A DNA stretch of 64,000 nucleotides, taken from Pararhizobium sp. IMCC21322 (GTDB lineage: Bacteria > Pseudomonadota > Alphaproteobacteria > Rhizobiales > GCA-2746425). Every line of letters starts with the position of its first letter. Position 1 is the first letter of the stretch. Made by a program: the position numbers and the translations under genes. This document shows, piece after piece, positions 2,863-24,011 of this stretch. Below the pieces are notes generated by a model. It ran no database searches. It worked only from the letters and a program-made list of their open reading frames with translations, and was not told where the DNA came from. The DNA is taken from NCBI RefSeq assembly GCF_030758295.1, contig NZ_CP132335.1, positions 4,192,412 to 4,256,411 on the forward strand, in the 5' to 3' direction.

Positions 2863-4662
2863 TTAGACGAAAAGCACAATCAGGCCCAACACTAAAGCGA
2901 CAAGACGCCACAGAAAAAAACGTGGTGCAATCGCAGCAAAGGATAGAGCCACAAGTGCCACCAAAACCTTGGCAGCCGCAAACAAAGCGATCAGCGGTTC
3001 AGACCCAAGCCCGATCAATCCCGGATTGGCAATCATGCCAAGGGGAATGAAATAAAGACCCAACCCCAGCGCCATAGCGGTTAGCGCGACTTTCAGCCAG
3101 TTCTCTTCCACCATTCCCGCAGCAATAAACACGGCACCACAGACGGGCGGCGTGATGGTTGACAGCAGAGCAAACCAGAACACAAACAAATGCGCCTGCA
3201 ATGGCTCAAGACCCAAATCGATCAAGGCAGGTCCAGCCACCGATATACAGATCACATAGGCCGCCGTTGTCGGCACCTCCATGCCGAGAATCAGACAGGC
3301 GAAAGCCGTCAGCAGCAAGGCAGGCCACAACATGCCGCCGGAGCCGGACAGGATCAGCGATGTGATTTTCACACCGAGGCCCGTCATGCCCAGAACTCCG
3401 ATAATGATGGAGGCACACAGAATAATGGATGCAATCAGAGCCACCTGACGTCCGGCATTCATGAGCACCGCTTCCACACGCGCCAATGTGCGCCGCCAAT
3501 CAAACGACAAATTGCTGTCCACCAGCAGCAAGACGGCCCCGGCGATCATCGCCAGACTGGCGGCATATTGTGGTGTCACTTTAGCGCCGAACATGCCCCA
3601 AAGCAGCACGCCAAAGGGCACCAGGAAGAACGCCGATGTAATAGCCACCTGCCGCAATGAGGGCTGGTCTTCTTTGGGCACACCGCGCAGGGGAAAGCGC
3701 AGGAAAAACATATCAATGCCCACCCAGACAGCGGCAAAATACAACAGCGCGGGTAACAGTGCCGCCAGAATGATCTGCTCGTAAGGCGTGCCGGTCAGCT
3801 CCACCATGACAAACGCCCCGGCCCCCATCAGCGGCGGCATGATCTGCCCGCCGGAAGATGCCACGGCCTCAACGGCTGCCGCCAATCGTTTGGGATAACC
3901 AAGCCGCGTCATGGCAGGCAATGTAATGGCACCCGTGGACGCCACATTGGCAGAGGCCGAACCGGAGATGGAGCCGAACAACGCAGAAGACAGAACGGAC
4001 ACTTTGGCAGCGCCGCCGCGCAACCGTCCCGCCGCAGCCGAGGCCACATTCATGAAGCCCTGCCCCGCTTCACCGGCATTCAAAATGGCCCCGAAAATCA
4101 CGAAGATCGCAACAATGCTGACCGAAACGCCCGTCAACTTGCCCCAGATCCCACCCTCGGCAATTGTCAGTGTTCCCAGAAAGCTTTGCAGCGGTATACC
4201 GGCGTAGCCAAACTCGCCGGGAATGTGCTGGCCAAACAGCCCGTAGGCCAGCGCCAGCGCGGCAACCGTCGGCAGCGGCCAACTGATGGCACGTCGTGCC
4301 ATTTCAAGCGTGACCCCCAACAGAACAACAGCCACACCCAGTTGAAAATCACCGGACAGAGTACCGTATTGGTCACCCAGCATATCCTCATTCAGCGCAA
4401 TCCAGATGCAGTCAGCCACGCCCAGCACACACAACACTGTGCCACTGATGCGCTGACGTTGCGTCTTGGCCATGAAGATAAGCACCCATGGCAATGCCAG
4501 CGCCATATGCAAGGGACGGCTGAGAAGATTGGGCACAAGTCCGGAGAAAATCAGCCAGATATGAAACCCGATGGACATGGCTCCAAGCGCGCACCAAAAG
4601 AGGCGCGCTGTCCCAGACAGCGCGCCTTCATCAGAAGCAATTGAGAGTGACTTAGTTGTCAC
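2863..4662 (-). CDS. TRAP transporter permease, fused 4TM/12TM (TAXI type)
   Basis: The 599-residue product has about 16 hydrophobic spans. The first four correspond to the small DctQ-like subunit and the rest to the large DctM-like subunit, the fused form found with TAXI-type binding proteins. Diagnostic phrases of the large subunit are visible: SALFGSISGSASANVASTG, SSGGQIMPPLMGAGAF and LGMEVPTTAAYVI. It would drive sodium-coupled uptake of an organic acid delivered by the periplasmic protein encoded 22 bp upstream. The gene sits between the binding protein and a Gate-domain protein on the same strand, indicating one operon. Substrate is not predictable from the sequence alone. Confidence 0.93.
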   Translation of the reverse strand: MTTKSLSIASDEGALSGTARLFWCALGAMSIGFHIWLIFSGLVPNLLSRPLHMALALPWVLIFMAKTQRQRISGTVLCVLGVADCIWIALNEDMLGDQYGTLSGDFQLGVAVVLLGVTLEMARRAISWPLPTVAALALAYGLFGQHIPGEFGYAGIPLQSFLGTLTIAEGGIWGKLTGVSVSIVAIFVIFGAILNAGEAGQGFMNVASAAAGRLRGGAAKVSVLSSALFGSISGSASANVASTGAITLPAMTRLGYPKRLAAAVEAVASSGGQIMPPLMGAGAFVMVELTGTPYEQIILAALLPALLYFAAVWVGIDMFFLRFPLRGVPKEDQPSLRQVAITSAFFLVPFGVLLWGMFGAKVTPQYAASLAMIAGAVLLLVDSNLSFDWRRTLARVEAVLMNAGRQVALIASIILCASIIIGVLGMTGLGVKITSLILSGSGGMLWPALLLTAFACLILGMEVPTTAAYVICISVAGPALIDLGLEPLQAHLFVFWFALLSTITPPVCGAVFIAAGMVEENWLKVALTAMALGLGLYFIPLGMIANPGLIGLGSEPLIALFAAAKVLVALVALSFAAIAPRFFLWRLVALVLGLIVLFV

Positions 4663-4684
4663 GCCTGTAAATTACCTGTGTGCG

Positions 4685-5641
4685 TTACTTCTGCGCGTCG
4701 GAAAGTGGAAAATCCATTTCCGTGTAATAGCGCAGCGCGCCGGGATGAATGGCGCTGGTGATGGTGCCCATCAAGTTTTGATCCACGCCATTCCACCAGG
4801 CAGCATCTTCACCCATTTTGGTCTTTTGGTCCCAATAGGTCTTGGTCAGTTGGTAGGCCGTATCATCATCCATATTGGTGGTGGTATAGGCCACAACCGG
4901 CAGTGATGTGGTTACGATGTCAGCCTCCTGCCCGGCATATGTGCCAGCGGGAATCACCAGCCGCGTACGTTTGGTGGCGGCAATCTGCTCATCATCCAGA
5001 GATAGAACCTTTACGCCAACACTGGCTGCAGCCTCGATGACATTTGGCGCAGGCCAGGAACCAGCCGTGACAAATCCGTCAATCTGACCGTTCTTCAGCG
5101 CCGGTACAGCATTGGACAATTCCACATCCGGCAGATTGACCTTTGTTTCCAGACCAAACAGGCCCAGATATTTCGCGCCCTCACGCGCACCGAAAGAACC
5201 CTTGCCAATCAATATGGTCTTGCCTTCCATATCGGCGAAAGAATTGATGCCCGCATCTTCGCGTACGACAAAATGCATGGTCAGCGATGGAATCGGGAAC
5301 AGCGCTCTGATCTCATCAAATTTCGGGTTGCTCTTGCCTTCAAACATGGCCTTGCCACCCTGCGCCAGACCAACAAGTGCTGGCGGCGTAGTGAACACAT
5401 AATTGCCTGGCCGGGCAGCGGCTTCCATGACGTTCTGAACCGAACCCTGGCTTTCCTCAACGGTGACAATCACATCGCCATTTGTTCCTGCCTTCATGGC
5501 CTCGGCAATCTGCACCGCCATCTGATAATAGGACGAACTGGATGATGCAGACTTGTAGGTCACACGCGTCTCTGCATGGCTTGCAAAGCCCGTTGCAGCA
5601 AGCAATCCTGATGCCAGAGCCAAGCTCTTGAAAAGTTTCAT
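4685..5641 (-). CDS. TAXI-family TRAP solute-binding protein
   Basis: The start at 5641 is supported by an upstream GGAGG and by a clear Sec signal peptide beginning MKLFKSLALASGLLAATG and ending at SHA-ET. The mature part begins with the TAXI hallmark (TYKSASSSSSYYQMAVQIAEAM) and contains FVVREDAGINSFADMEGKTI and a GSFGAREGAKYLGLFG segment, which build the two-lobed binding fold. About 318 residues, normal for the family. It captures a small ligand, often glutamate-like or a dicarboxylate, in the periplasm and passes it to the fused permease downstream. It is divergent from the ABC pair starting at 5779, leaving 137 bp for two promoters. Confidence 0.93.
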   Translation of the reverse strand: MKLFKSLALASGLLAATGFASHAETRVTYKSASSSSSYYQMAVQIAEAMKAGTNGDVIVTVEESQGSVQNVMEAAARPGNYVFTTPPALVGLAQGGKAMFEGKSNPKFDEIRALFPIPSLTMHFVVREDAGINSFADMEGKTILIGKGSFGAREGAKYLGLFGLETKVNLPDVELSNAVPALKNGQIDGFVTAGSWPAPNVIEAAASVGVKVLSLDDEQIAATKRTRLVIPAGTYAGQEADIVTTSLPVVAYTTTNMDDDTAYQLTKTYWDQKTKMGEDAAWWNGVDQNLMGTITSAIHPGALRYYTEMDFPLSDAQK

Positions 5642-8640: not shown

Positions 8641-9583
8641 ATGTCATCGGCCCGGACTGTTCCCCATGCGCTATATCTGCAATCAGTGCCCGGAAAGGCG
8701 CATAAAAATCCGACTTTGTGGTTTCAGAAGAGCCTGAAACACGCGGCCGAATTTCTGCACCTCACACAGCCCGCAATTTCAAAGACTCTTAAAGAACTTG
8801 AGGAAATTGCAGGCGTTACCCTGCTTGAACGCGGTCGCGGCGGCGTGTTGATAACTCCCGAGGGCGAGGTTTTCTTAAGGCACGCCGCCACCAGCCTCAA
8901 CGCGCTGGATCAGGCCTTGAACAGCGTATCTGCACTGCAAAAGGGGGAACAGGGTTCCCTTGCAGTCGGCGCACTACCCAGCGTTGCAGCACGGCTGATG
9001 CCATTGGCAACACAAATTTTCAAACAGGATTTCCCCCACATCACCCTTCTGCTTGAAGGGGGCCAACACAGTTTTCTGGTGGATCGTCTGCGCCGGAACG
9101 ATTGATCTGCTGATCGGTCGGCTTGGCAAGCCCGACCAGATGAAAGGCATATCCTTCACTCAGCTCTATATGGAAGATGTTGTCGTGGTCTGCTCGCCGG
9201 ATCATCCACTGACCAGGTCCAGTCGGCTCGCCGATATCTCATCCTATCAAATCATCTACCCCACACCAGAGTCAGCCATTCGCCCGCTGGTGGACCTGAT
9301 GATGATTGCCAATAATATCAATACCTTCTCCAATCGTATTGAATCAGTTTCTGCGACATTCGGACACGGCCTGACCCTGACCAGCAACGCCTTATGGATC
9401 ATCTCAAGCGGCGTAGTCGCCACAGACATCGCCAACGGAAGACTGGTCGCACTACCAATCGATATGCGCCTCACCAACGGCCCCATAGGCATCATGACCC
9501 GCGCCGAAGAGGACTTGTCACCGCTCGCCCAAGTGTCTCGCCAAGCGGCGATAAAAGCGGTTGAGGAATTGCGGTTGCGTTGA
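8641..9583 (+). pseudogene. PcaQ-like LysR regulator, frameshifted
   Basis: Two overlapping frames together make one LysR-type regulator. The first (8641-9105) carries the helix-turn-helix part SLKHAAEFLHLTQPAISKTL and the linker; the second (to 9583) carries the effector domain (GTIDLLIGRLGKPDQM through IISSGVVATDIANGRLVALP), most like PcaQ, the activator of protocatechuate genes. The break lies near 9091-9097, where LRR is followed by a stop instead of GTIDLL; one base appears missing. The first 40 or so residues also do not match the family N-terminus, which suggests a second lesion in the start region. No pca genes are nearby. A sequencing error could explain the internal break but not easily the odd N-terminus. 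Confidence 0.8.
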
Positions 9584-9700: not shown

Positions 9701-11394
9701 TTACTCAGACAACACTGCGTTGATGAACGGCAGCATAAAACTTCTCACTGATTCATATTGGTCTGCTTGAAGTAACTGTTCCTTGGTTTCAGGGTTTACT
9801 TCACGCCCGTCCAATTTTACGCCATGCAGACTACCCGTCGCAAGAACCAGCTGGCTTCCAGATGGTCTTTCATTAAGCGCAAAATTAATCATGCGTTTCG
9901 AATTTTCTGGGTCAGGATCTTGTTGGAGCGGTGTATCAATTACGATTGGACAAAAACAAGAAGTAGAAAATTTGTCTATCGTATGCAAAATAGCATAATT
10001 GTAAGCGAGGATAAGTCGTGGCGCTTTGTTGCCCGTCTCTCGAATTGTCGGTCTGATGTTATCCCACATGTTGCTTGGAACATTATCAACACGAAGTTTT
10101 TTGCAGAACATACGAAGCTTATCAGCATAAAATTTGACGATTTTTTCTCTGTTCTCCTTTTTGTCAAACGAGCCCATTTCCTTTTTTGCAGCGGCAATTT
10201 TTTCGTTTAGCGCGCCAATATCACCGTCGATTGAGCGTTCCTCCCGCTCAAAGGTATGGTCCAGAATGCGCTCACTTTCATCGCGCAACATGTCGCCTAA
10301 CTTGATCTGTCCTCTAGTCTCCTCAAGGATTGATTGAATGCGATCTATGCTAACTTGCATTGATGGCACACTCTTTAAACGCAGAACAATTTCAGCATTC
10401 AGCTTGTCGACCTTCGCTCGCGCTTCTAGAAGTATAATGCGGCATGCGTCCGCGTCATTGTGCAAACCAAACCTGTTAGCAAAATCGTTTTCATGCACTG
10501 TGCTGCAAACTGGGCAAACGATCTCTGCATCACTTAGCTTTTTTGAGAACTTTATGTCAGCCTCTAGTTCTGACAGCACCCTAGCAGCAATTTCGACCTC
10601 TTCTCGTGAAGCTGTCCTTCGAGCCTGCAGTTGTGAAATCTCAATTCGAACCTCATCATAAGATTTCTGCAATACGTTTTGCTCTTTCAACAGAGCGTTA
10701 ATCCTGTCTCCAAAGGCTCCTACATCCAATGCGATCCCAACTCGCTTGCGCTTGTCATTAAAGCGTTGTTTAGCTTTAGACAGCGCAGTTCTTTCTTGAG
10801 CCAGTTCTCCTCTGGCTGCAGTTGCTTCATCCCTTGCGGCCTTCAACCGATAGTACTCTTTGGGACGAATTCCAGTGTGATAGCGGGCTATGTCGTTCTT
10901 GTAAGCGCTAATCATTTCAAGACCAGAGAACGAAGACCACGTGTCTACCCAACCCTTTTCTTGATCAAGGTAAAATGGAAGAAAGCAGAAAGCAGGTGGA
11001 GGAACGGCATTTCCCCCCCCTTGAGCTTCGCAGTTATCTCAAAGTCCAGTAGCTCTGCAATTTTTGGCGCTAGATCCTTAACTACTGAATTTCCGGTCCA
11101 TGTTAGTGTTCTAACCTCATCAAACAACGCAAAACGCCCTGCTTGTCGGAGCATAAAGAACGCACTACCGTCAATTTCGAACTCAAGCAGTGTTTCGACT
11201 TTTGCATTCTTCCAGGGTTCTGGCGTTCTAGACGGGTCAGCGCCCAGCGTCGCGTACAATGATTTTACGAGGCTCGACTTGCCAAAATCATTGTCGGCAA
11301 CGACCGTAGTTGTCAGGCTGCTAAAATCCTCAACTCTTGCTTTCTTTTCTTGATTTGATAGCAACCAGAGTTTTCTGAATTTCAGCCTTTTCAT
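9701..11394 (-). pseudogene. Rad50/SMC-like ABC ATPase of a defence pair, frameshifted at a G8 tract
   Basis: The gene should encode about 564 residues starting MKRLKFRKLWLLS. The head shows a P-loop variant ADNDFGKSSLVKSL near residue 34, then the frame breaks. After a one-base correction at the G8 run the protein reads NAVPPPAFCFLPFYLDQEKG and continues into a long coiled coil with a zinc-hook CPVC motif, then a second coiled coil, and ends with the Walker B block PIVIDTPLQQDPD. This is the architecture of ABC ATPases in Lamassu (LmuB) and ABC-three-component defence systems. It lies 47 bp after a DUF4297 nuclease relic in the same direction. Without the correction, translation stops at residue 149. 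The pairing supports a defence role, but the exact system class is an inference. Confidence 0.8.
11013..11020. repeat. C8/G8 homopolymer at the frameshift of the ATPase gene
   Basis: Eight consecutive C on the plus strand (G on the coding strand) sit where the ATPase frame shifts. Nine G would join the N-terminal and C-terminal frames without loss. Such a run can slip in replication, and it is also a common place for base-calling error. Confidence 0.85.
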
Positions 11395-12368
11395 GCCGCT
11401 TTGTCCTCAAGTTTCTAATAAGAGTTTTGTAATTTTCTAGCTTAGTCGATTGAATACGCTTCATATAAGATCATCGCCTCTATTCGTTCGTCCGATGCGG
11501 TCATCAACTCAGCACGAGCTTCCACCGCCACAGCGGTAAAGACGAGGCTCAGCAAGTCGTTTAAGCTCAAACCTTCAAAGTCGTTATCTTTGATAAAGCT
11601 GGAAATTCTACGCCTTATTTTTCGCACTGCTTCATTTGGGTTGAGAACTGCAACACGGTATGAGTTCCACTCGCGTCGCAAACGTATTTTTTTTGGCGCA
11701 GGTAAGTGTATATCAGCTGAAATCTCTTCCCATTTTGGACAATTCACGGTTGATGAAACGGCTTGTAGCCAGCCGTTTGCGTCAAGCCGAGTTATCCCAC
11801 GACGCGACACCACCTCATCGAAATCGCTAAGGTCCACGTTTGTCGCACGGGACTTTCTGTCACATTCATCAGAAATGGCCTTGAACACTGCTGACAACGA
11901 AAATTCAGCTTCGCCGAGATTTTCAACGACAAAAGCGTCTAACTTACCTTTTGCGTGTGCATCTGCATCATCCAGACTCAAGTCTGTTCGTGAAACCCAG
12001 AGAAGCTCGCTTTTGATCGTACTTTCGCCTGAGAATTCTTCTTCCAGCTTTTTAGTAATCTCTGCCAGTTTGCCTTCGTCACACTCAGTCAAACAGAACT
12101 TGTTCTTACTGGATGGAGCAAAGTTTGTGGGCGCATTCGACAAAAAGGTAGCCGACTCCACACTGTCACCAAATGCAACTGCATTTTCATACATCTTCCC
12201 CAAAAAAGAACGGGTATCTTTGTCTTTCTTTTTGTCGCGTTTAGTCAACGCCGCGGGTGTCCAGTTACCGCTCTTCTTTGATTTTACTTGATAAAACTGC
12301 ACGTTCTGAGGAGCACATTGATCGTCAAAAATTGCAATTGGCCTGCTGCCGGTTCCGTGGACAGGCAC

Positions 12369-13232
12369 TTAAGCTAACATTGCCACCTCCTCGAACTCAA
12401 CGGGGCTGAGATATCCGATCGTCGAATGCCTCCGTTTTGGATTGTAGAAGCGTTCGATGTAGTCGAACACATCTGCCTTGGCGTCGTCGCGCGTCCGGTA
12501 GACCTTTCGGGCCGTGCGTTCCGTTTTCAGCGAGGAGAAGAAGCTCTCCATCGCGGCGTTGTCCCAGACATTTCCTGAGCGGCTCATCGAGCATGTGATG
12601 CCATGATCGGCCATCAGCCGCTGGAACTGCTCGCTGGTATACTGACTACCCTGATCGGAGTGGTGCAACAGGCTGTCGGGCTCGCCTCTTCGCCAGATCG
12701 CCATGATCAGCGCATCGGTCACGAACTGCGCGCTCATGCTGGCACTCATCGACCATCCCACGACCCGGCGCGAGAACAGGTCGATGACGACGGCAACGTA
12801 GAGCCACCCCTGCGCAGTCCAGATGTAGGTGAAGTCGGCTACCCACTTCTGGTTTGGCGCTGGCGCATCAAAGGCCCGATCAAGGATGTTTTGCGACACC
12901 GGCGCCATCCTTTCGCCCGCATCCTTCGGCAGCCCGCGCCGACGAGGCCGGGCTCGCAGCCCGCTTTCGCGCATCAGCCGCTCAATGCGATGGAGCCCGC
13001 ATGACAGGCCTTCGGCCAGAACGTCGTGCCAGACCCGGCGTGCGCCATAGGTGCGGTCACTGCTCTTGAAGCTCCGGTCGATAACGGTGAGGAGTTCCTC
13101 GTCGCGCCGGGATCTCACGCTCGGGCTCCGGTTGAGCCAGGCGTGGAAACCCGAACGTGATACATCCACAGCGGCGCACAGCCATGCCACCGGCCAGATG
13201 CCCCGGTGCTTCGCGATGAAGGCGAACTTCAT
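12369..13232 (-). CDS. IS3-family transposase OrfB (DDE integrase domain)
   Basis: The 287-residue product shows the rve-type DDE core: first Asp in WVADFTYI, second Asp in HHSDQGSQYTS, and Glu in NAAMESFFSSLK, followed by YNPKRRHSTIGYLSP. An N-terminal HTH_21-like region (YGARRVWHDVLAEG) precedes the core. Its ATG overlaps the orfA stop in ATGA at 13229-13232, so it is made by coupling or, as is usual in IS3, as an OrfAB fusion through ribosomal frameshifting. Length is normal for the family. Confidence 0.96.
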   Translation of the reverse strand: MKFAFIAKHRGIWPVAWLCAAVDVSRSGFHAWLNRSPSVRSRRDEELLTVIDRSFKSSDRTYGARRVWHDVLAEGLSCGLHRIERLMRESGLRARPRRRGLPKDAGERMAPVSQNILDRAFDAPAPNQKWVADFTYIWTAQGWLYVAVVIDLFSRRVVGWSMSASMSAQFVTDALIMAIWRRGEPDSLLHHSDQGSQYTSEQFQRLMADHGITCSMSRSGNVWDNAAMESFFSSLKTERTARKVYRTRDDAKADVFDYIERFYNPKRRHSTIGYLSPVEFEEVAMLA

Positions 13233-13519
13233 GTCACTTCTTTCGCGAAGAAGGCCGTGGCCTTTTTTAGGATGTCACGCTCCGCCTTCAGCTTTCTCAC
13301 TTCGCGTCGAAGCCGCTCGATCTCAAGCTGCTCGGGCCTCATCTGGCAATGGCCGGGAAACGCATATTGCGGATCAGCCGAAAATTCCTTGATCCATTTG
13401 CGCAGCACATTCTCGTGCAATTCGAGATCCCGCGCCGCCTGGGCGGCCGACACACCACGTTCCCTGACAAGCCTCACCGCTTCAAGCTTGAACTCGCGAC
13501 TGAACTTTCTTCTCTGCAT
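13229..13519 (-). CDS. IS3-family transposase OrfA (DNA-binding)
   Basis: This 96-residue protein starts MQRRKFSREFKLEAVRLV and has the Tnp_1 helix-turn-helix (SAAQAARDLELHENVLRKWI) followed by a leucine-zipper-like helix (IERLRREVRKLKAERDILKK). It recognises the inverted repeats and joins OrfB to form transposase. The end reads FFAKEVT and overlaps the orfB start. Confidence 0.96.
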   Translation of the reverse strand: MQRRKFSREFKLEAVRLVRERGVSAAQAARDLELHENVLRKWIKEFSADPQYAFPGHCQMRPEQLEIERLRREVRKLKAERDILKKATAFFAKEVT

Positions 13520-13791
13520 TGGATAACTCCGATTCCATCAAAACACCTTAACTCGGTGTCCACGGAACCGGCAGCAGGCCAAATATCGTCGTGATATTCA
13601 AACACAAGCGCATAGTCGCCACCCAACTTGTGCCTTTCTAAGACGAGAACCAATCCACAAAGAGCTTGGTAGTGGTATCGACTATTTGTGTGCGCTCCAC
13701 TATCTTCGCGTTGCGGCGTGGAAGTCAGCTTTTTTTTCAGTTCAGTCAAACGCAGATCTCGCAATAAAACAACTCTGAGATGAAACCTCAC

Positions 13792-18603: not shown

Positions 18604-19128
18604 ATGGCTGAGACGAAACACCCAATAAGGCGTCTGCTGGATGGCCTTTATACCGGGGCCGGAATGCTGGCTGCTATATGCCTGTTCATGATTCTGGTTA
18701 TCATCGTTGGGCAAATGGTGGCACGCTGGATGGGCACCCCCTTCCCCGGCTCGGCGGAATATGCCGGCTATTTCATGGCGGCCTCGTCGTTTCTGGCCTT
18801 TGCCTATGCGCTCAACAAGGGCGCGCATATTCGGGTCAGCCTGTTTCTCAGCGCGCTGGGGCGTTACCGCCATTGGGGCGAAGTGTGGTGCATGGCCATT
18901 GCCACTGCGGCCACCTGCTATCTGGCCTGGTACGCCATTCGCGGCGTCAGCCTGTCGATCAAATTCAACGATATCAGTCAGGGGCAGGACGCAACGCCCC
19001 TATGGATCCCGCAAAGTGTTGTCGCCTTTGGCGCCGTGCTGCTGGCAATCTGCTTCATTGATAATCTGGTCACCCTGCTGATCAGCCGCCGCGATAACAT
19101 TCGCGCCGACGCATTGGCGGGGGACTAG
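18604..19128 (+). CDS. dctQ: TRAP transporter small permease subunit (DctQ)
   Basis: The ATG at 18604 has GCGGGGG just upstream and gives a 174-residue protein with four membrane spans and the DctQ pattern FPGSAEYAGYFMAASSFLAFAYALNKGAHIRV, read here in two blocks. It pairs with the DctM subunit to form the membrane part of a TRAP uptake system. The dctM gene lies 265 bp away because a palindromic element is inserted directly at the dctQ stop codon. The stop TAG at 19126-19128 is made from the left end of that element. Confidence 0.92.
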   Translation: MAETKHPIRRLLDGLYTGAGMLAAICLFMILVIIVGQMVARWMGTPFPGSAEYAGYFMAASSFLAFAYALNKGAHIRVSLFLSALGRYRHWGEVWCMAIATAATCYLAWYAIRGVSLSIKFNDISQGQDATPLWIPQSVVAFGAVLLAICFIDNLVTLLISRRDNIRADALAGD

Positions 19129-19390
19129 AGCCCATCTTGTTTATATGGAACCATTTGATGCACCAGATCAGTTCATCCGGCAAGGCAGGCAGTGAAGCGC
19201 GATGCGGCGCATCGGGCGAACTGGCTAACGCGGCCGGTGGGCTGTTCTGGTTCACCGAAGGCCTGCTTTGCGCGCTCGCCGGACATCGTTACACCCCACT
19301 TATGGTCGTGATGACCACTGCGTGGCGCGTGCCTCGCCGGCAAACGCGCAAAGCAGGTCAAATGCTTCCATATAAACAAGAGGGGCTCTA
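19126..19390. mobile_element. MITE-like element with TA ends inserted between dctQ and dctM
   Basis: The two ends are inverted repeats of about 32 bp with two mismatches, each starting TAGAGCCC and containing CTCTTGTTTATATGGAA or its near copy. The terminal TA on both sides fits a TA target duplication, as in IS630/mariner-related miniature elements. An inner pair CTGCTTTGCGCG / CGCGCAAAGCAG forms a second hairpin. No transposase is inside. If the element is removed with one TA, dctQ ends in TAA and dctM starts 2 bp later, the compact spacing usual for these genes. Confidence 0.85.
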
Positions 19391-19393
19391 ACC

Positions 19394-23343: not shown

Positions 23344-23485
23344 TGGATTCTCGGAACAAGTCCGAGAATGACGGGGATAGAATGTCGCGCATAGTCTCTC
23401 CCCCTAGAATTTTCCAAACACCATCGTGTTCATGCGCTGCATCAAGGCCCCTCGGCGTCATTCTCGGACTTGTTCCGAGAATCCA
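23344..23485. repeat. inverted pair of 30-bp palindromic repeats
   Basis: Two perfect inverted copies (23344-23373 and 23456-23485) of a 30-bp unit containing ATTCTCGGAACAAGTCCGAG lie 82 bp apart. Each unit is itself a near palindrome (ATTCTCGGA / TCCGAGAAT). Such units are frequent dispersed repeats in alphaproteobacteria. The right copy forms the last codons of the neighbouring flavin-fold gene. Confidence 0.9.
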
Positions 23486-24011
23486 CCAGCACCAACCCCA
23501 GATCTTCAGCATTCAAAACAAAAGCCTTGCCGAAACCACCATTGAGATAGGCATTTTCCACGGCGAACCGGAACAGAAAAAAATCTCCGAAATCGATATA
23601 AAGCGCCGCTTTGGGATGCTGTTTCAGATATTGCGCCCGTGTCTGCGCATGATCCTCGGACGCCTTGTCCAATCGTGTGGCTTTCGCCTGCAAGGTGATG
23701 CGTGGATGCGCAAGCGGATCGCCCTTGCCCGGCTCGCCCACCAGCACAGAACAGGATGCATTCTCGATCAACGCTTTTGTGTGATAGGCCAGCGTCGACA
23801 TCAGCGAAATTGGCCGACCATCAACATCCAGAGCAAACGCAATGCGACTGGCCAAAGGGCAACCGGTACCCGGCTCCAGCGTTGCCAGCGCAGCAAAGCT
23901 GGCCTCGGCCAACAAACGCCTGCCCAGTGCGCGCGCCTCATCATCAGTTTCCCGGATAGGGCTTTTTGGCTCAGCCATTATCATGCTCAAATTTGTCGGG
24001 TCCACATCCAA
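23442..24011 (-). CDS. pyridoxamine 5'-phosphate oxidase-like (HugZ-type) protein
   Basis: The protein shows the split-barrel flavin or heme-binding fold: FAALATLEPGTGCPLASRIAF, then SCSVLVGEPGKGDPLAHPRITL, and FFLFRFAVENAYLNGGFGKAF. This matches the HugZ/heme-utilisation branch of the PNPOx superfamily. The last residues (LVDSRNKSENDAEGP) are encoded by a dispersed palindromic repeat, so the natural C-terminus may have been replaced. The start is uncertain: GTG/ATG choices at 24011, 23984 or 23978. Confidence 0.85.
   Translation of the reverse strand: MDVDPTNLSMIMAEPKSPIRETDDEARALGRRLLAEASFAALATLEPGTGCPLASRIAFALDVDGRPISLMSTLAYHTKALIENASCSVLVGEPGKGDPLAHPRITLQAKATRLDKASEDHAQTRAQYLKQHPKAALYIDFGDFFLFRFAVENAYLNGGFGKAFVLNAEDLGLVLVDSRNKSENDAEGP

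Follow-up and report, generated by a model that had tools for sequence, protein, structure and literature searches.

Lamassu systems made up of two genes are classed as type I and three-gene sets such as DdmABC as type II, according to PMC12409362. PMC10586767 states that all Lamassu components, as well as the enzymatic activity of the effector, were essential wherever tested, and that LmuC is absent from some systems. PMC12409362 adds, citing preprints, that LmuA, once activated, is freed and assembles into a tetramer, which in turn activates the Cap4 domain. In working relatives, as drawn from the literature, the SMC-like LmuB would detect DNA that is foreign or aberrant and set LmuA free, the Cap4 domain of which would then cut DNA. 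The same review (PMC12409362) reports a study of 16 V. cholerae ddmABC mutants that kept full protection against phage VIB04, several of which carried severely truncated proteins arising through nonsense mutation, frameshift or interruption; the author of the review urges caution.

The locus described here lies in a window of 64,000 nucleotides from Pararhizobium sp. IMCC21322, the window being the whole stretch of DNA that was analysed. The locus is very probably the decayed remnant of a type I Lamassu anti-phage or anti-plasmid system with a Cap4-type nuclease effector, in which lmuA has been cut by an insertion sequence (IS) and the frame of lmuB looks broken, and from its sequence we infer that it is probably inactive. 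lmuA ends at 11442 and lmuB starts at 11394, a gap of only 47 bp, and the third (middle) component, LmuC, is absent between them. This arrangement, a pair of neighbouring genes not separated by a middle component, makes the locus a Lamassu of type I, and its effector is of the Cap4 kind. The first-pass annotation had paired the nuclease with a Rad50-like ATPase, as in Lamassu-Cap4 and ABC-three-component systems; the partner is LmuB and the system is Lamassu, but the locus has two genes and not three components.

The N-terminal piece of lmuA (13585..13791, minus strand, 69 residues) ends at the conserved aspartate of FEYHDD, and the C-terminal piece (11442..12338, minus strand, 298 residues) starts before the QxK motif (QVK). 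The two pieces were searched separately, rather than as a rejoined protein, against the Cap4_nuclease and LmuA profiles. The N-terminal piece matched positions 1–40 of PF14130 (E = 1.1e-7) and the C-terminal piece (11445–12338) positions 43–200 (E = 4.2e-20); each piece alone exceeded the curated cut-off of 26.2 bits, the two scores being 73.2 and 32.7. The PADLOC LmuA model PDLC00238 gave the same picture, with positions 4–56 matched by the N-terminal piece (E = 4.8e-13) and positions 57–363 by the C-terminal piece (E = 2.7e-50). The pieces therefore fall on consecutive positions of both profiles, far beyond chance, and the Cap4/DUF4297 (LmuA) family membership on which the earlier description depended was found even with the pieces searched apart. 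They also matched the two parts of a single Shimia marina protein, with 58% identity for the N-terminal and 39% for the C-terminal piece. A search of the PDB by sequence with the C-terminal piece returned nothing meaningful, the best match being an unrelated protein at E = 0.24.

In a seven-row alignment E29, G32, Q42, E65 and D69 of the N-terminal piece were invariant, D69 being its last residue, as were Q17 and K19 (QxK) of the C-terminal piece. The corresponding Shimia marina columns D60, Q77 and K79 were at least 90% conserved in a 38-row alignment consisting of 36 relatives and the two window pieces. By this conservation, the IS break follows immediately on the conserved aspartate and precedes QxK. 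In the predicted structure of Shimia marina LmuA (mean pLDDT 91.5), D60 lies just before the strand 61–64 and QxK at the end of the strand 73–79. The aspartate and the QxK residues, which we take from knowledge of the family to be catalytic, lie within a single protein in intact relatives; in the window the acidic residue and QxK are 1,243 bp of IS apart and lie in different pieces.

The intervening element is an IS3-family insertion sequence of 1,243 bp (12339..13581, minus strand) in the same orientation as lmuA. It ends in TG...CA, and its terminal inverted repeats of 25 bp (12339..12363, plus strand, and 13557..13581, minus strand) are perfect over 25 of 25 bases and flanked by a target-site duplication AAT, with a left copy at 12336..12338 and a right copy at 13582..13584. 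OrfA (13229..13519, minus strand; HTH_Tnp_1, E = 2.7e-18) and OrfB (12369..13232, minus strand), which carries a DDE integrase core (rve, E = 2e-31; NF033516 IS3 transposase, E = 1.4e-107), together with the TG...CA inverted repeats and the short target duplication, place it in the IS3 family; RNA folding at the OrfA/OrfB junction was unremarkable (z = -0.59). The ends were fixed independently by a relative on an Ancylobacter pratisalsi plasmid, annotated as an IS3 family transposase, which aligns in full from base 1 to base 1243 and differs in sequence (79.5% identity). Another on a Methylovirgula plasmid, with the same annotation, aligns end to end (1–1243) at 74.9% identity. The coordinates originally given for the element thus proved correct to the base, and its ends, the duplication and the profile matches bear out the proposal that it splits a Cap4-type nuclease between the DD pair and QxK. 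The prediction that its removal would rejoin a single frame also held, since the short flanks, when joined by script with the IS removed, gave one open frame across the empty site. The IS insertion is not a sequencing error.

The partner gene lmuB, encoding an SMC/Rad50-like ATPase, is present in two parts. The 5' part (11013..11394, minus strand) matched positions 1–128 of the LmuB model PDLC00249 (E = 1.1e-47) and contains a Walker-A-like stretch, VVADNDFGKSS; the 3' part (9701..11012, minus strand) matched positions 126–562 of the same model in another frame (E = 1.2e-158) and contains a zinc-hook-like CPVC and VIDTPLQQ. A Pfam scan of both parts gave no ATPase match above the cut-off, and a sequence search of the PDB with the 3' part found Lamassu LmuB (9ux7) at E = 0.0023 only; what identifies the gene as lmuB is its match to the LmuB models, together with the Walker-A-like stretch and the hook-like CPVC. 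LmuB is not a single open reading frame in the assembly, the two frames meeting at a C8 run (G8 in the gene) at 11013..11020. In the assembly, lmuB is therefore also broken in appearance, a point on which the first-pass annotation was silent, so that the predicted loss of function does not depend on the IS only. Given that all components and effector activity are described as essential (PMC10586767) and that LmuA is activated as a tetramer (PMC12409362), either lesion alone should inactivate the locus. The protected ddmABC mutants in the latter source are a reason not to take every broken Lamassu for inactive.

The IS3-family element landed directly after the lmuA aspartate, leaving neither piece with both halves of the active site, and lmuB has, in the assembly, separately lost its single reading frame at the homopolymer run. 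Both losses may have been tolerated or even favoured, as an abortive-infection nuclease is presumably costly when unneeded.

Homopolymers are a classic place for sequencing errors, and the coincidence of the lmuB break with the C8 run leaves doubt over whether the frame break is such an error. In that event only lmuA would be truly broken and LmuB would still be made, alone. The strong matches of both lmuB parts, neither of which contains an internal stop, are compatible with an error of sequencing or assembly; the genome, on the other hand, is a single contig given as 100% complete, and there is evidence for decay nearby. Outside the defence unit, a PcaQ-like lysR (8725..9583, plus strand) was recognised as a pseudogene by comparison with a congener (G002). 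Its 5' end is missing beside a rearrangement relative to G002 and its frame changes near 9093, while the intact relative in a congener matches at 88% over the C-terminal part. Among 33 ORFs of G002 that were mapped to the window, lysR alone changes frame; this control was confined to ORFs no shorter than 200 residues that mapped with an identity of 78% or higher, antisense shadows among them, with worse-mapping or unmapped ORFs dropped and uncounted, and the G002 stretches that were compared face only part of the window. As lysR is both frame-broken and truncated and the other compared genes are clean, decay in this stretch is real. An error in lmuB is in our view a minority possibility.

The sequence composition and surroundings of the two genes suggest that the locus was horizontally gained. 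The lmuA C-terminal piece was found in one of 61 genomes, the window's own, and was absent from 60 relatives, four of the same genus; lmuA and lmuB together have a G+C content of 45% against 53% for the window; and at the site, between lysR and a MOSC-like gene, the congener has different content, namely two ABC-transporter-like ORFs (named by reading). The standing of the window as a defence island was judged from reading its ORFs, the PADLOC scan covering the lmuA and lmuB pieces. Elsewhere in the window, a dispersed repeat of ∼266 bp (19126–19391) is present in a dozen or more copies in each of two congeners (G001 and G003), is apparently inserted relative to G002, and could be a MITE- or REP-like element. 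Repeats of ∼31 bp, at ∼23344–23377 and 23456–23489, occur in both orientations and in many copies in congeners.

To place the locus among its relatives, family searches were made in two sets of genomes. Of 385 genomes, two had LmuA, including the window's own, and of 398, six had LmuB, the window's own again among them. The six other genomes from both searches carry whole, adjacent lmuA–lmuB pairs in the same order (6/6), PADLOC confirming LmuA in all six; the pieces of lmuA are thus represented by one uninterrupted gene beside lmuB and not by separate genes, as the split-gene proposal had anticipated. A search of wider genome contigs with the C-terminal piece of LmuA confirmed no relative. 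A scan of named genomes with an LmuB profile confirmed 140 relatives, the nearest being from Shimia marina (50%), Halocynthiibacter namhaensis (48%) and Sphingorhabdus (44%). In plasmid and phage collections only distant LmuB was found, in 31 and 12 records respectively, all below 60% identity, and no plasmid matched the Shimia marina pair at the DNA level. On the Novosphingobium plasmid NZ_CP117882.1 (626251–627060), residues 135–404 of the LmuB query matched at 40% identity in a region with no annotated gene, at two places in the record; this is possibly another broken lmuB.

The best 80 of the 140 confirmed loci, all found through one LmuB motif, were then surveyed. An lmuA-like frame lay directly upstream of lmuB in 76 of the 80, and both genes were whole in 70, L086 (in which lmuA model positions 3–44 are in a separate frame) having been subtracted from a script count of 71. 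Nine loci looked broken (L057, L086, L087, L102, L104, L108, L116, L120 and L131), a count that may include errors of draft assemblies and MAGs and may under-sample lmuB breaks because the loci were found via one LmuB motif; L075, cut only by a contig start, was not included. A transposase lay beside the break in three of the nine: an IS3 type in L131 (E = 5.9e-30), an IS66 type in L108 (E = 1.1e-135) and, weakly, an IS21 type in L057 (E = 7.8e-4), the L131 and L057 matches being to partial proteins and below the curated cut-off. The contig start of L120, which we take to resemble an IS end, was left out of this count. The contigs of L057, L108 and L131 begin within the transposase region and thus show one side of the insertion; both sides of an insertion were seen in none of the 80 loci, unlike in the window. 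These proportions refer to Lamassu only and come from profiles trained on members of the same locus set, in which L026 and L095 are one contig and L111 and L115 have an identical LmuB tail. In L026 a DrmC/DpdK-like gene (4224–5540; best E = 4.3e-10) follows an intact lmuA–lmuB pair.

The genome yielded two full-length copies of the IS, without a single difference over their 1,243 bp, which indicates recent transposition. In the region L028:4763-6886 (genome 4700762–4702885), the second copy abuts a beheaded PD-Lambda-4_A gene, of which only profile positions 154–443 of 1283 are found in the genome (156–443 in a second scan, E = 1.3e-158); it has no matching target duplication (CTT/AAC), and the PD-Lambda-4_A fragment is followed by an IS5-type transposase. 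Both full-length copies found therefore touch defence systems, which are unrelated to one another (Lamassu and PD-Lambda-4), and in up to three other lineages transposase sequence adjoins a broken lmuA or lmuB. These are the grounds for supposing that Lamassu is lost repeatedly and under selection, with insertion sequences as a main agent, a supposition we regard as improbable. That both copies sit at defence genes is striking, yet the sample is no larger than two, and dispensable islands are in any case where transposases accumulate.

The C8 run might also be taken for a phase-variation or slippage site, at which expression of LmuB would be turned on or off, or slippage in the transcript would give a low level of the protein. 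The longest homopolymer runs in the window are three of eight bases each, at 11013, 11687 and 13730, and all are within lmuA or lmuB. When the codons of the two genes were shuffled, a G/C run of at least eight appeared in just 18 of 2000 shuffles and three or more runs of eight, of any base, in 33 of 2000. The relatives speak otherwise, as the 222,937 bp of lmuA and lmuB frames from the 80 loci contain no G/C run of eight or more, the 33 runs of that length being all A/T. Furthermore, with lmuA cut by the IS, a switched lmuB would have no nuclease to control, and no report of a frameshift at a homopolymer in Lamassu was found in the open PMC literature. Phase variation or slippage at this site is thus very improbable.

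At the downstream end of the IS, a GTG immediately after the OrfB stop shares the frame of the C-terminal lmuA piece (TAAGTG, 12366..12371, minus strand) and is a possible re-initiation site, in frame with a reading frame of 308 codons containing that piece. Translation from this GTG could give a C-terminal fragment that lacks the active site's first half. It may be imagined that transcription from the IS, which shares the orientation of lmuA, and this junction drive expression of a truncated LmuA with a new function, either regulatory or as a decoy for LmuB. Against this, the assembly does not have lmuB in a single frame; the junction, being internal to the IS, would arise wherever the element lands in a suitable frame; and no conservation was found, the C-terminal piece being confined, among 61 genomes, to the window's own. 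Such an arrangement is less probable still than phase variation and carries very little weight.

The suggestion that the two pieces of lmuA are separate, unrelated genes and that no gene was split is refuted by their consecutive positions in one family's profiles, by their identities to two parts of one Shimia marina protein and by the frame that runs unbroken through the empty site, and is practically discarded.

A decayed type I Lamassu is then the preferred reading, and the locus appears ordinary in kind, being the remains of a known defence system and not something new. A Lamassu broken by an IS has quite possibly been published already, and the link of one IS with two damaged defence loci is mildly interesting. 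The locus offers a clean and recent example, judged by the identical IS copies and the intact target duplication, of a bacterium losing an abortive-infection nuclease that its relatives have. The survey, although small, adds a proportion, with 9 of 80 Lamassu loci looking broken and three showing a transposase at the break (one by a weak match). The locus also carries a warning, since Lamassu genes may be reported from profile matches alone even where both genes are incomplete in the assembly.

DdmABC of Vibrio cholerae, a type II Lamassu, likewise combines a Cap4 nuclease with an SMC-like protein in its published description (PMC12409362), and differs in the middle gene that the window locus does not have. 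When the model of Shimia marina LmuA was searched with Foldseek, the first match was a Hachiman protein (8zue, E = 6.3e-6), which counts against the LmuA reading, and the second, in its favour, the Salmonella enterica LmuA nuclease tetramer (9hr5, E = 5.2e-4), at ∼12% identity and matched by the relative's model, not by the broken window protein. Cap4 chains came next, the best being CBASS Cap4 (6vm6, E = 0.048) with the others weaker. This is a weak fold match in which the nuclease domain shares a Pfam name; CBASS Cap4 differs in the SAVED/CARF receptor domain named in its record and is not known to have an LmuB partner. With type I Lamassu the window locus shares the LmuA Cap4 domain, an SMC-like LmuB with a CPxC hook and the position of lmuA directly before lmuB, and it is set apart by the broken appearance of both genes, lmuA through the IS3 element and lmuB through the frame break.
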